From the NCBI GenBank assembly GCA_019636175.1, contig JAHBYC010000016.1:1-54167 (forward strand): a stretch of 54,167 nucleotides of DNA, read 5' to 3'. The translations under genes were made by a program, and so were the position numbers. Under the pieces are notes generated by a model. It did no database searches. It had not been told where the DNA came from and was given only the letters and a program-made list of their open reading frames with translations. This DNA is from Caulobacter sp. (GTDB lineage Bacteria; Pseudomonadota; Alphaproteobacteria; Caulobacterales; Caulobacteraceae). Each line of letters begins with the position of its first letter. The stretch's first letter is position 1. Of this stretch, positions 2,928 to 51,729 are shown piece after piece.

Positions 2928-3152
2928 GTCATCCCGGACGCCCGGAGGGCGAGCCGGGAGCCAGAGGGGACGGAGCGGGTCTTGGACGCAGCTTTGCGGC
3001 CGGCGCGCTGCACCCCTGGGTCCCGGCTCTCCGCTTCGCTGCGGCCGGGATGACGGGAGTGAGGGTGACGGGAATGCGGGGGATGGCCGTGCGACTGGCG
3101 CGCTGCACCCCTGGGTCCCGGCTCTCCGCTTCGCTGCGGCCGGGATGACGGG
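2928..3152. repeat. Family A repeat with 56-bp perfect direct duplication
   Basis: An arm at 2928-2968 (CGTCATCCCGGACGCCCGG) is the inverse of the arms ending GGCCGGGATGACGGG. The right arm appears twice: 3002-3057 and 3097-3152 are identical over 56 bp with a 95-bp period, so the unit was locally duplicated. The array fills most of the 325-bp gap between the oxidoreductase and the His-rich protein gene, and its end lies only 5 bp from the latter's stop codon. I see no gene in this gap. Confidence 0.85.
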
Positions 3153-3157
3153 GGAGA

Positions 3158-5405: not shown

Positions 5406-5452
5406 GAACCAGGAAGGGCCAGGGCCGATCGGACTTTGGCAGATCACAGAAT

Positions 5453-5585
5453 TCCGCTCTTCCCGGCGAAGGCCGGGATCCATTCTCAGTCGCTGGGTCG
5501 GCCGAATTTTTCTGAACCACAAGCGCTCAGTCGGCTGGGCCCCGGCTTTGGCTGGCGCCGCCCTGCGGGTCGCCGGGGTGAGCGG
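5453..5585. repeat. Family C palindromic repeat (CCGCTC…GAGCGG)
   Basis: The left arm CCGCTCTTCCCGGCGAAGG and the right arm ending CGCCGGGGTGAGCGG are inverted versions of each other; the right arm carries extra bases. The full form is at 51603-51729 and a partial copy at 18677-18759. It lies between the convergent prfA and YihY genes, where it could serve as a two-way transcript end. Confidence 0.8.
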
Positions 5586-18579: not shown

Positions 18580-18616
18580 AGCAGGGCTCGATTTGATGGA
18601 TCAAATCGCCCTGCTC
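18579..18616. repeat. TA-adjacent palindromic element at the HxlR stop codon
   Basis: GAGCAGGGC at 18579-18587 pairs with GCCCTGCTC at 18608-18616, and the inner GATTTGAT/ATCAAATC also pairs, so the whole element is one hairpin. It begins directly after TA (18577-18578), so the TAG stop of the HxlR gene takes its G from the element. It may also end transcription, since CCCTTTTGG follows. Confidence 0.75.
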
Positions 18617-18628
18617 CGGAGCCCTTTT

Positions 18629-18680
18629 GGTCGCGCGTTTGATCCGATTGCCGGTTCACACTGATCGGAACGCGCTCTGG
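18629..18680. repeat. Short palindromic repeat, family D, copy 1
   Basis: About 50 bp starting GGTCGCGCGTTTGATCCGAT and ending TGATCGGAACGCGCTC; the ends are imperfect inverted repeats around a CCGGTT core. A near-identical direct copy is at 18847-18896. Confidence 0.8.
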
Positions 18681-18759
18681 CGGATCCAGCTTCGTTCAGA
18701 TTGTCTTGAAGACCAGAAGCTCAGGCGGCTGGGCCCCGGCATTCGCCGGGGTGAGCGGA
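18677..18759. repeat. Partial family C repeat
   Basis: The segment runs from TGGCGGATCCAGCTTCG to the right arm CATTCGCCGGGGTGAGCGG, matching the ends of the repeats at 5453-5585 and 51603-51729; its left arm is cut short and joined to the family D copy. The whole 314-bp gap 18580-18893 holds only such repeats and a terminator, no gene. Confidence 0.7.
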
Positions 18760-18813: not shown

Positions 18814-18846
18814 TTCTGTCGGCTGGCCAGAAGCCAGAGTCCTCTA

Positions 18847-18896
18847 GGTCGCGCGTTTGATCCGATTACCGGTTCCCACTAATCGGAACGCGCTCA
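18847..18896. repeat. Short palindromic repeat, family D, copy 2, fused to petC stop
   Basis: A direct copy of 18629-18680 differing at a few bases. Read on the minus strand it begins exactly at the petC stop codon: the TGA opens the GAGCGCGTTCC end of the element. Confidence 0.8.
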
Positions 18897-25426: not shown

Positions 25427-25983
25427 AGGATGTGCGCCCCGACCGGCCCGACCGGGAAGAAGGCGCCGTTGGAGGTCACGCCCAGCACCGGCCCTTCCGG
25501 CGTGTCCCGTTCGCCGGCCAGCTCGACCAGCTCATAGAAGACGGGACGATTGATCCGCGCCTCCAGACCGCGACGCACGTGCAGATAGGGGCGCGGTTCG
25601 CCGGTTTCGGGGTCCATCTCGACCCGGATGGCGTTGTCGGGGCCGGCCTCGACCACATCGCCGACATTGGTCAGGAAGGTGAGGGCATCGCCCTGGCGGT
25701 CGACCCGGGTGGCGATGAAGGGCGCGTCCTCGACCGTGATCCTCATCTTCTCGACGGGGGTGACCAGATGGAAGCCGTCGGGGTCCTTGCGCAGCACGGT
25801 GGAAAACAGTCGCACCAGGGCCTCGCGGCCGATGGGCGTGCCGTCATGGAACCACAGGCCGTCGCGCTTGATGACGATGTCGATCTCGCCGCAGTGAGGC
25901 GGGTTCCACAGATGCACGGGCGGCAGGCCTTTCGCCGTCCGGGCGGCGGCGATCACATTGTCGAGGCCTGTCGGGGAGCTCAT
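25423..25983 (-). CDS. DUF1285 family protein
   Basis: The 186-residue protein matches DUF1285: HLWNPPHCGEIDIVIKRDGLWFHDGTPIGR, LVRLFSTVLRKDPDGFHLVTPVEK, and RPVFYELVELA. Structures of the family show a small beta-rich cytoplasmic protein of unknown role. The start is placed at MSSPTGLDN; an ATG 12 codons upstream (26019) is possible, and neither has a good ribosome site. It heads the DUF1285-Nudix-CCA operon. The broken monooxygenase gene ends 44 bp upstream. Confidence 0.82.
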   Translation of the reverse strand: MSSPTGLDNVIAAARTAKGLPPVHLWNPPHCGEIDIVIKRDGLWFHDGTPIGREALVRLFSTVLRKDPDGFHLVTPVEKMRITVEDAPFIATRVDRQGDALTFLTNVGDVVEAGPDNAIRVEMDPETGEPRPYLHVRRGLEARINRPVFYELVELAGERDTPEGPVLGVTSNGAFFPVGPVGAHIL

Positions 25984-26027
25984 GGCCTCGATGTAGGAGC
26001 CTTCCGCCCCGGCATTCAAGGGCGGCG

Positions 26028-26426
26028 TCAGGCCGATCCGATATCCTCGGCGCTGTAGCGACGAACCGAAGCGCCGGCGATCATGGCGATCTGGGCCTGA
26101 TCCATGCCCGAGCCGCGATTGCCTTCGAGGGCCTCCGCCGATTCCCAGCGCTCGAAGACGTTGACCCGATCAGGCTCGACCGGATCCTCGGAAACCGCGA
26201 AGTCGAGACAGCCCTCCGCGGCGCGCGCCTGCCTAGAGCATGTCAGGGCGAAGTGTACGCGGTTCGCCCGCCCGGACATGCTCTAAACGTTTGATTTTAG
26301 ACCCTTTTGATCAGGTTTTGATGCGTGCATCAAAACCTGAAAGGGTCTAACGGCGTCGGCCGACAGATCGACAAAGGCTCGTCGCGCGCCGGGCTTCAGC
26401 GTCAGGGAACCGGCGATGATGATCAT
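26028..26426 (-). pseudogene. Antibiotic-biosynthesis-monooxygenase-like gene split by a palindromic element
   Basis: The N-terminal part starts at 26426 (MIIIAGSLTLKPGARRAF…SADAV) and the C-terminal part ends at 26028 (ARAAEGCLDFAVSEDP…VFERWESAEAL). Together they make a normal ABM-family protein of about 93 residues. Between them lies the 112-bp TA-flanked element at 26236-26347. With one TA duplicated the insertion is 114 bp, so the frame is kept, but the element brings one in-frame TAG (26283-26285). Removing the element and one TA gives codons GTT AGG CAG GCG at the join. The downstream half could restart at the ATG at 26279, which lies inside the element. Probably non-functional. Confidence 0.85.
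26236..26347 (-). mobile_element. 112-bp composite palindromic element (family E), copy 1
   Basis: Read on the minus strand it is two palindromes back to back: the first from GACCCTTTCAGG to AAAGGGTCTA, the second from TAGAGCATGTCC to GACATGCTC, joined by an AT-rich AAATCAAACGTT. The outer ends GACCCTTTCAGG and GAGCATGTCAGG (inverted) agree at 9 of 12 bases. TA flanks both sides (26234-26235 and 26348-26349). It carries no gene. The second copy is at 45674-45785 in the opposite orientation with 5 mismatches. The form fits a miniature inverted-repeat element that duplicates TA. Confidence 0.8.
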
Positions 26427-26598
26427 GGGATTGGTCCTTTGTCCGAAAGCCGCGGCGCAAGGCCCGCACCCGGTGAGATCGACCGCGAACAGAGCACGGG
26501 CCGGGCCTTGGCCGAAACCCCGGATTTCATCGGCGGCCGCTGTTCGCCCCGCGCGCCCCAGGATGGACGGGCGGGCCGGTTCGCCGCAAAACCGGATC

Positions 26599-26967
26599 AT
26601 GAACGATATCGACCAGCGTCTGGCGGTCTACGGCACCCTGGCCCCGGGGCGGTCAAGCCACGACCAGATGGCGGGTCTGACCGGAACCTGGACCCCCGGC
26701 GTGGTCCGGGGGCGGCTGGCGGCCAATGGCTGGGGCGCGACGGAGGGCTATCCGGCCCTGATACCCGACCCCGACGGGCCCGAGGTGGACGTCCTGCTGT
26801 TCCGGTCCGCCGACCTTCCCGCGCACTAGGCCCGGCTCGATGACTTCGAAGGCGAGGGCTACCGGCGCGTGGTGACGATCGTGCGGCTCGCCGAGGGGCC
26901 GGTCGAGGCCTGGATCTACGCCAGCCTTTGCCGGAACTTCCCCCGACGGCCAGAACCTCGGGATTGA
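26599..26967 (+). pseudogene. Gamma-glutamylcyclotransferase-like gene with nonsense codon
   Basis: The frame opens MNDIDQRLAVYGTLAPGRSS, the AIG2/GGCT substrate-loop signature YGTLAPG, and runs to a TAG at 26827-26829. The same frame continues after the stop with ARLDDFEGEGYRRVVTIVRL and VEAWIYASL, the normal C-terminal half of the family. Family members have a Trp-x-Arg-Leu-Asp at this point, so the TAG most likely arose from TGG by a single change. The final residues past ASL look unlike the family, so the tail may be altered too. Only the first 76 residues would be made. Confidence 0.8.
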
Positions 26968-26976
26968 AGCGGGCGA

Positions 26977-27270
26977 TCAGTCCCGGGGCTGAACCGGCAG
27001 GATCTTCATCTTCGTCTGGCTGGCCGCCAGCGACCGCATGGTCCGCATGAAATCCAGCGAGGTCTCCAGCTGGAAATGGGCGTCCAGCGCCGCCCGGTCC
27101 TCCCATTCCTCGTAGAAAACCAGGGTCAGCGGGTCCTCGGCGTCGATGGCCACGCCGTGCCTGAGGCAGCCGGGCTCGGTGCGGGAATGGCGCACATGCT
27201 TCAGGGCCGCCGCCAGCATCTGGTCCAGGCTGTCGGGGCGGGCGGTTACGGTACCGGAGACGACCAGCAT
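26977..27270 (-). CDS. Putative quinol monooxygenase (ABM domain)
   Basis: The 97-residue protein is a ferredoxin-like ABM-domain enzyme: LVVSGTVTARPDSLDQML, HSRTEPGCLRHGVAIDAEDP, LVFYEEWEDRAALDAHFQ. The family includes YgiN-type quinol monooxygenases acting as dimers without cofactor. Its ATG overlaps the TGA of the acyl-CoA ligase gene by one base and the ribosome site GAGGAG lies in the ligase's last codons, so the two are coupled. It is a relative of, but clearly different from, the broken ABM gene 550 bp away. Confidence 0.85.
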   Translation of the reverse strand: MLVVSGTVTARPDSLDQMLAAALKHVRHSRTEPGCLRHGVAIDAEDPLTLVFYEEWEDRAALDAHFQLETSLDFMRTMRSLAASQTKMKILPVQPRD

Positions 27271-28835
27271 CAGCTCCTCGCCGGGCCGTCGTAGGCGTCG
27301 CGCAGTTCGCGTTTCAGCACCTTGCCGATGTGGCTGCGGGGCAGGGCGTCGACCAGCACCACATCGGCGACCCGCTGGGTCTTGCCGACCTTGCCGTTGG
27401 TGAAGCTCTTGATCTCCTCGGGCGTGGCGGTCTGGCCGTCCTTCAGCGCGACAAAGGCGACCGGGGTCTCGCCCCAGTCCTTCGATGGCACGCCGACCAC
27501 GGCGGCCTCGACCACCGCCGGGTGTTCGACCATCACCGCCTCCATGTCGCTGGGATAGATGTTGAAGCCGCCGGAGATGATCATGTCCTTGCGGCGGTCC
27601 ATCAGCTGCAGGAAGCCCTCGGCGTCGAGGCGGCCGACGTCTCCGGTGCGGATGTAGATGTCGCCGGTCTCGGGATGCACCCATTGGGCCTCGGCGGTCT
27701 TGCCCGGCTGGTTGTGGTAGCCGTTCATGGTGGCGGGGCTGTAGCCGACGATCTCGCCGATCTCTCCGGTGGGCACCTCGTTCCCCTCCTCGTCGACCAG
27801 CCGGATGATGCAGCCGGGGGCCGGCTGGCCGACGGTGTGCAGCTTGTCGGGATGCTCATGCGCCGCCAGCATGAAGCTGCCGCCGCCTTCGGTCATGCCG
27901 TAGTATTCGATCAGGCCGCCGGGCCAGCGCTTCAGCACCTCGGCCTTCAGCTCCGCTGAGAAGGGGGCGCTGGTGCAGAACTTCATCTGGAAGGCCGACA
28001 GGTCGTAATCGTCGAAGCCGGGGAACTCCATCAGGCGGCGGTACTGCACCGGCACCAGCATGGTGTGAGTGATCTTCTGTTCCTGGGCGATCTTCAGATA
28101 CTGCTCGGTGTTGAACTTGCCCATCATATGCACCGTCCCGCCGCCCGACAGGGTGGGGAAGAAGCAGACCAGGGTGGTGTTGGAATAAAGCGGCGTGGAG
28201 ATCAGGCTGCGGGCGTCGGGGCCATAGCCGACGCCGTCGGGCCGGACCGACAGGTGGCGCCAGCGCATGCCGTGGCTCTGGACGATGCCCTTGGGAATGC
28301 CGGTCGTTCCCGAGCTGTAGATGATGTTGAAGGGGTCCTTGCGGCCGATCTCCACCGGCGCGGGCTTGGCGCCCTCAGGCGGGAGCCAGGCGGCGAAGGA
28401 CTCCCCGGCGTCGGACTCGTCGAGGGCGATCCGGCGGGCGGAAACCTGGTCCATGACATCGGCCATCAGTTCGGCGACGCCCTTGTCGAGGAAGAACAGG
28501 GTGGCGCCGCTGTCGGCGATCATCCCGACCAGCTGCTCGGCGGTCGAGGAGGGCGCCAGGGGCGCGGCGGCGACCCCGGCGCGCAGGCATCCCAGGAACA
28601 GGGTGGCGTAGTTGATCGAGGTGGTGGCGCAGATGGCCACCGCCTTGCGCTGCTCGACCCCGTCGCGCTGCAGGCCGGCGGCGACGCGGTCCATCCGGGC
28701 GTCCAGTTCGGCCCAGGAGATGGAGACCCCGTCCTGCCACAGGGCCGGATGGTCCGGACGGTCCTGCGCATGCTCGCGCATGATGTCGGGAAGGTTGCCG
28801 AAGTCGGCGGCGCGGAACTGGTCGAGGATGGTCAT
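27270..28835 (-). CDS. Class I adenylate-forming acyl-CoA ligase
   Basis: The 521-residue enzyme activates a carboxylic acid via acyl-AMP to acyl-CoA. Signature A3 YSSGTTGIPKGIVQSH, the A5 EYYGMTEGGG, IRTGDVGRLDAEGFL and the catalytic Lys in PRSHIGKVLKRELR are all present. The substrate is not evident; the sequence resembles medium/long-chain or aryl fatty acid ligases. The start is the ATG in MTILDQFRAADF; the open frame upstream runs into a repeat. It lies downstream of the beta-oxidation enzyme at 29025, with a family F repeat between, and is coupled to the ABM gene. Confidence 0.9.
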   Translation of the reverse strand: MTILDQFRAADFGNLPDIMREHAQDRPDHPALWQDGVSISWAELDARMDRVAAGLQRDGVEQRKAVAICATTSINYATLFLGCLRAGVAAAPLAPSSTAEQLVGMIADSGATLFFLDKGVAELMADVMDQVSARRIALDESDAGESFAAWLPPEGAKPAPVEIGRKDPFNIIYSSGTTGIPKGIVQSHGMRWRHLSVRPDGVGYGPDARSLISTPLYSNTTLVCFFPTLSGGGTVHMMGKFNTEQYLKIAQEQKITHTMLVPVQYRRLMEFPGFDDYDLSAFQMKFCTSAPFSAELKAEVLKRWPGGLIEYYGMTEGGGSFMLAAHEHPDKLHTVGQPAPGCIIRLVDEEGNEVPTGEIGEIVGYSPATMNGYHNQPGKTAEAQWVHPETGDIYIRTGDVGRLDAEGFLQLMDRRKDMIISGGFNIYPSDMEAVMVEHPAVVEAAVVGVPSKDWGETPVAFVALKDGQTATPEEIKSFTNGKVGKTQRVADVVLVDALPRSHIGKVLKRELRDAYDGPARS

Positions 28836-51588: not shown

Positions 51589-51602
51589 GGGTCTCCCTGA
51601 TT

Positions 51603-51729
51603 TCCGCTCATCCCGGCGAAGGCCGGGATCCAGTTCGTAGGGCTGAGATGTCTGAAGATTGTTCTCTGACTTGCTTGATCCGCCCACGCTCTGGCGGATG
51701 GGTCCCGGCCTTCGCCGGGATGAGCGGAA
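51603..51729. repeat. Family C palindromic repeat inside the operon
   Basis: Full form: TTCCGCTCATCCCGGCGAAG at the left end and CTTCGCCGGGATGAGCGGAA at the right end are inverse copies with a variable middle. It fills most of the 159-bp gap between the first and second operon genes. Confidence 0.85.

Follow-up and report, generated by a model that had tools for sequence, protein, structure and literature searches.

A CIR-like palindromic repeat inside a Caulobacter ABM-domain gene is best read as an IS630-type MITE

In a 54,167-bp stretch of the genome of a Caulobacter species (hereafter the window), a 112-bp element made of two hairpins splits a gene that encodes an antibiotic biosynthesis monooxygenase (ABM)-type domain. 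The best reading of its class is an IS630-type MITE with the architecture of the Caulobacter CcrM-associated intergenic repeats (CIR). From the ends of the element and the sites that it occupies, we infer mobilisation by a transposase, and we hold it very probable that the element is a non-autonomous transposon moved by an enzyme of the IS630 family (Tc1/mariner type). An intragenic copy, duplication of TA and a matching type of transposase within the genus would be candidate answers to points left open for CIR, and the ends and sites together suggest how a long-known type of bacterial repeat moves.

The element interrupts an ABM-domain gene

The split gene lies on the minus strand at 26028–26426, with its ATG start at 26426, and was delimited by alignment with orthologues and a match to PF03992. 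The element within it (copy L001; 26236–26347, plus strand in A-to-B orientation) has three differences from the consensus of the full copies in the genome and is bounded by TA on the left (26234–26235) and on the right (26348–26349), as a sequence-only reading of the window had described. Reading the minus strand from the ATG, we found a single in-frame stop before the end of the gene, a TAG at 26285–26283 (minus strand) that lies inside the element and ends the first part of the gene. This confirms the claim that an insertion of 114 bp left the frame unshifted and that one TAG causes the break. The in-frame ATG that had been pointed out is also present inside the element, shortly after the TAG (26277–26279, minus strand), and could restart the second part. 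Removal of the element and one TA yields the junction GCC GTT AGG CAG GCG, exactly as proposed, and an unbroken gene of 285 bp with an ABM domain (PF03992, E = 1.4e-14); its 94 codons plus stop correct the earlier estimate of about 93 residues.

Matches to the gene occurred in 4 of the 75 genomes of the genus, including its own. The orthologues in the other three (G019, G014 and G040) are uninterrupted and 285 bp long, without any length change relative to the joined gene, and the DNA beside them aligns as well. Measured against these syntenic intact genes, the net insertion is 114 bp, and the point of insertion is free of extra sequence in all three, as an insertion into an intact gene had been taken to imply. 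By contrast, the expectation that relatives would show a single empty TA at this locus failed: the corresponding dinucleotide is TG (L049), CG (L051) and CG (L052), and TA is kept by none of the three. Here the orthologues read GTTGAG, ATCGAG and ATCGAA against GTTAGG in the joined gene, from which they differ at 68, 81 and 95 of 285 positions.

Because the genome is a draft (91 contigs totalling 3.17 Mb; completeness, 86.9%) in which three further pieces of the element are cut by contig ends, the junction could in principle be an assembly error through a repeat. However, the two flanks together make up one gene, arranged as in the orthologues, with synteny on both sides, which makes such an error barely credible.

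The second part of the split gene has dN/dS values of 0.11–0.15 against the three orthologues, compared with 0.17–0.20 among the orthologues themselves, and conservation is lower in the first 25 codons. This pattern fits a recent insertion and would also be compatible with a fragment that is in use. A scan of 25900–26650 for promoters and terminators returned neither, and we therefore claim no intrinsic terminator at the element. Close to the split gene, on the same strand, 26980–27684 encodes another ABM domain (PF03992, E = 3.2e-17), which could mask loss of the interrupted gene.

Structure and copies of the element

Counting the TA ends, the element folds into hairpin A (26234–26285, plus strand, 52 nt), which is also backed by compensatory changes in the genus, and hairpin B (26298–26349, plus strand, 52 nt), separated by a 12-nt linker (26286–26297, plus strand). 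Folding gave z-scores of −8.2 for one strand and −9.1 for the other, and none of 200 shuffled sequences was equally stable on either. The inner arm of hairpin B has four extra bases in the window copy. Of the 28 own copies that extend into this arm, 27 have extra bases there, as do 24 of the 25 elements listed for the genus (the own one included). Of 29 own copies, 15 carry GANTC in the linker, the only place where it occurs in them; the window copy is without it. At 112 bp and with an in-frame stop, the element contains no transposase gene, and no Rfam family matched the window at its gathering score.

The genome holds 27 full copies, with 92–100% identity to the window copy. They differ from their consensus at zero to eight positions, and three are identical to it, a pattern that fits a recent burst. 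A search of the genome for copies placed a second full one in the window (L016; 45674–45785, minus strand), between genes called as convergent.

Two sister copies have gapless single-CTAG empty sites in a relative

We queried relatives for the empty sites of 25 of the 27 full copies jointly; L001 was tested apart and L022 runs off its contig. An earlier alignment covered 28 loci and left the junction unspanned in 6 of them. In the final one, 24 of 30 fetched loci aligned, all of them spanning the junction and three without gaps. Two of the gapless loci come from G038, the closest relative by these loci, and correspond to copies L006 and L027. There, G038 aligns over 400 bp (371 and 333 identical positions, respectively) and has a single CTAG where the own genome has C-TA-element-TA-G. 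In the third gapless case, that of copy L015, TA is absent from the relative's site. Altogether, TA stood at the junction in 12 of the 24 aligned loci, with small gaps nearby in most of these 12. For the L027 site, 17 of 30 fetched loci aligned (one of the 30 being the own genome), and 11 of the 17 aligned genomes had CTAG at the junction, mostly with gaps.

Duplication of TA is thus supported by one TA in two gapless sister sites; at the ABM gene, it is deduced from the net length together with those sister copies. The earlier proposal that the repeat moves with TA duplication accordingly keeps the 114-bp difference and the two sister empty sites in its favour and loses the TA in the three relatives of the ABM locus. 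Mobility as such is likewise supported, in the form of presence or absence between species and three identical copies rather than as an observed event. When seven element-bearing loci of relatives were compared with the own loci in search of a shared copy, matches over 150 bases were confined to the element itself.

If the element had instead spread by recombination or by a single-strand mechanism of the REP/RAYT type, the TA flanks would be part of the repeat and not a target duplication. Strong hairpins would suit such a mechanism, but it fits poorly with a single CTAG in the two gapless empty sites and with a net gain in the ABM gene of 114 bp rather than 116 bp.

At the position of copy L025, an intergenic site, G038 (L240) and G014 (L106) hold other repeat-like sequence, as if the site had been used repeatedly.

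Most copies lie at called stop codons of convergent genes

When the two flanks of each of the 27 full copies are joined through a single TA, the predicted empty site is CTAG in 23 cases, CTAA in two (L001, the window copy, and L016), CTGG in one and GTAG in one. As background, CTAG accounts for 10 of the 576 TA sites in the window, and two of these ten are at element junctions; the other eight comprise four at called stop codons, four between genes and none inside a called gene.

The net length agrees equally with duplication of TA (2 bp, around 112 bp) and of CTAG (4 bp, around 110 bp). It would therefore also suit a transposase from some other family that recognises CTAG or YTAR and duplicates 4 bp. 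Yet copies with unequal sides, namely CTAG/CTAA in L001 and L016 and GTAG/CTAG in L024, favour TA, and the similarity of the element ends to those of IS630 points the same way, making another family of transposase very unlikely.

Lengths of open frames across the predicted empty sites were uninformative in this GC-rich DNA, and we turned instead to a gene caller based on codon usage, trained on 30 window frames; this crude tool left the ABM gene uncalled. It was applied to 26 of the 27 own full copies (L022 omitted) and to 24 loci elsewhere, the best-scoring one per genome. By this simple caller, 22 of the 26 own copies lie between convergent genes, compared with 8 of 52 adjacent gene pairs in the window. 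The called stop of at least one neighbour coincides with a junction TAG in 21 of these 26 copies (left gene, 14; right gene, 17; both, 10). Among the 24 elements of other genomes, 12 are in a convergent setting, 14 have at least one junction stop and 15 are flanked as CTA..TAG. The preference for stop codons is thus shown in the own genome, by a crude caller, and less marked in the rest of the genus.

In the IS630-type reading, the transposase would cut at the outer ends of the element and insert it into a TA, which is duplicated. The element has G as its first base and C as its last, so a copy inserted into CTAG would be bordered by TAG on each side, and the stops of facing genes that share a CTAG would be preserved. 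The window copy would be an exception, having entered a CTAA inside a gene, with the protein presumably truncated at the stop within the element. Such behaviour suggests a simple rule by which a repeat could spread harmlessly through a GC-rich genome: it enters stop codons shared by two genes and restores them.

For a wider proposal we regard the chances as evenly balanced, namely that CIR, and perhaps also the repeats of other Alphaproteobacteria (RIME and Bru-RS), belong to the IS630-family MITEs and home to stop codons. CTAG would be scarce inside genes and would act as a stop common to two facing genes; because the G...C ends would rebuild TAG on either side, both neighbours would be spared and a hairpin pair left between them. 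The inner arms would be spoiled by short insertions, so that the pair would move as a unit by its outer ends.

Element ends resemble those of IS630 transposons

Among eight genomes searched for DDE_3 transposases, only G019 had one. It belongs to the IS630 family (NCBIfam transpos_IS630, 213 bits; cut-off, 100) and is carried by a 1,041-bp unit with the ends GAGCACGTCAGGTTTT and GAGCATGTCAGGTTTT, located at a CTAG. Relatives of this transposase were found in 17 of the 75 genomes of the genus. The own genome, as an 86.9% complete draft, contains no DDE_3 domain and no match to the G019 enzyme; for this reason, the helper would have been lost, be missing from the draft or have come from outside.

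The transposase is one frame in G019 and two adjacent pieces (about 1–116 and 108–315) in several other genomes, as the transposase search showed at L117–L121, L134–L137 and L139; this arrangement may reflect programmed frameshifting or decay.

To define IS ends, we examined 18 loci and used 11, as a convincing pair of ends was lacking in six and L133 duplicates L127. TA was a criterion in choosing the ends, whereas the bases beside it were not used. The 11 copies are located at CTAG (nine) or TTAG (two), and 20 of their 22 ends begin with GAGC. The outer end A of the window copy (GAGCATGTCAGG, 26236–26247, plus strand) is identical in 12 of 12 letters to the right end of the G019 copy. Outer end B (GACCCTTTCAGG, 26336–26347, minus strand) matches the IS ends in part and more weakly than end A, several of its first letters being different.

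Across 26 elements, which share kinship so that the cases are not independent, outer ends A and B agreed with the 22 IS ends at 7.4 and 7.7 letters out of 10 on average. The inner arms, which could be excised from 24 (A) and 21 (B) of the 26 elements, reached means of 5.8 and 4.8, respectively, and 20,000 random ends scored about 4.6, mostly 4 or 5. Five of the 26 outer A ends, at 5 of 10, were no better than random.

The lack of an IS630 transposase match in the own genome would be in keeping with recombination or a REP/RAYT-like mechanism. Against it, the outer ends resemble IS630 ends, IS630 copies occupy sites of the same type, and we judge this explanation unlikely. Movement by an IS630-family transposase also agrees with the behaviour of ISY100, a member of the family whose insertions fall almost exclusively in TA, with duplication of that dinucleotide (PMC2170065). 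The same article cites a paper whose title gives 5′-CTAG-3′ as the preferred site of IS630 (PMC2170065). In open-licence literature, we found no published tie of palindromic MITEs of alphaproteobacteria or Rhizobium to IS630.

Comparison with known repeats

RIME and Bru-RS presumably resemble the element in the AGAGCAT... hairpins. These palindromic intergenic repeats of rhizobia (RIME) and Brucella (Bru-RS, 103–118 bp) are likened to the element here by description. RUP of Streptococcus pneumoniae is tied to an IS630, a link to which the wording of a 2007 review on the TIRs of RUP also points. The source paper on CIR is reportedly that of Chen and Shapiro (2003).

According to the 2007 review, CIR are about 110 bp long, with two hairpin arms, a linker and TA termini (PMC2229807). 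The element shares all of these features as well as abundance in Caulobacter. For CIR, the review lists no TIR, gives the target duplication as unknown and leaves mobility unresolved (PMC2229807). It also reports that CIR were not found within genes, whereas the window copy sits inside the ABM gene, and it places GANTC at a terminal loop (PMC2229807), unlike the own copies, in which it is restricted to the linker. We call the element CIR-like on the basis of its architecture.

For RUP, Table 1 of the review lists TA duplication and TIRs (PMC2229807), which the element shares with RUP and other IS630-type MITEs; those form one end-to-end stem, whereas the element has two independently paired arms. 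Insertion of a palindromic repeat within genes is known from RPE of Rickettsia, which are reported to remain open in frame and add a peptide (PMC10969869), whereas the present element kept the frame but brought in a stop.

A wider family in the genus

A covariance model built from 16 elements has 36 base pairs; for 22 of these, both partners are changed in one or more sequences. It matched 70 of the 75 genomes of the genus, among the best candidates (at most 49 per genome). In a class-wide search of 239 other genomes, with the best 15 candidates scored in each, matches at E = 1e-6 came from three genomes and comprised five loci; one of these (L176) also has two hairpins flanked by TA. Within the family, subfamilies differ strongly in arm sequence but retain the pairing, the size and the linker, and some related elements of the genus carry GANTC about the loops. 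In one copy (L034, in G060), hairpin B is reduced to TAGACCCCAAAGGGGTCTA.

The window also contains other repeats. Two copies of another palindrome-like repeat with GGAACGCGCTC ends, at 18616–18677 and 18834–18895, are 89% alike, and a stretch resembling them directly adjoins element copy L024. Further short intergenic repeats in the form of CCCGGCGAAGGCCGGG-like palindromes lie at 2995–3157, 5444–5555, 18700–18749 and 51594–51718.
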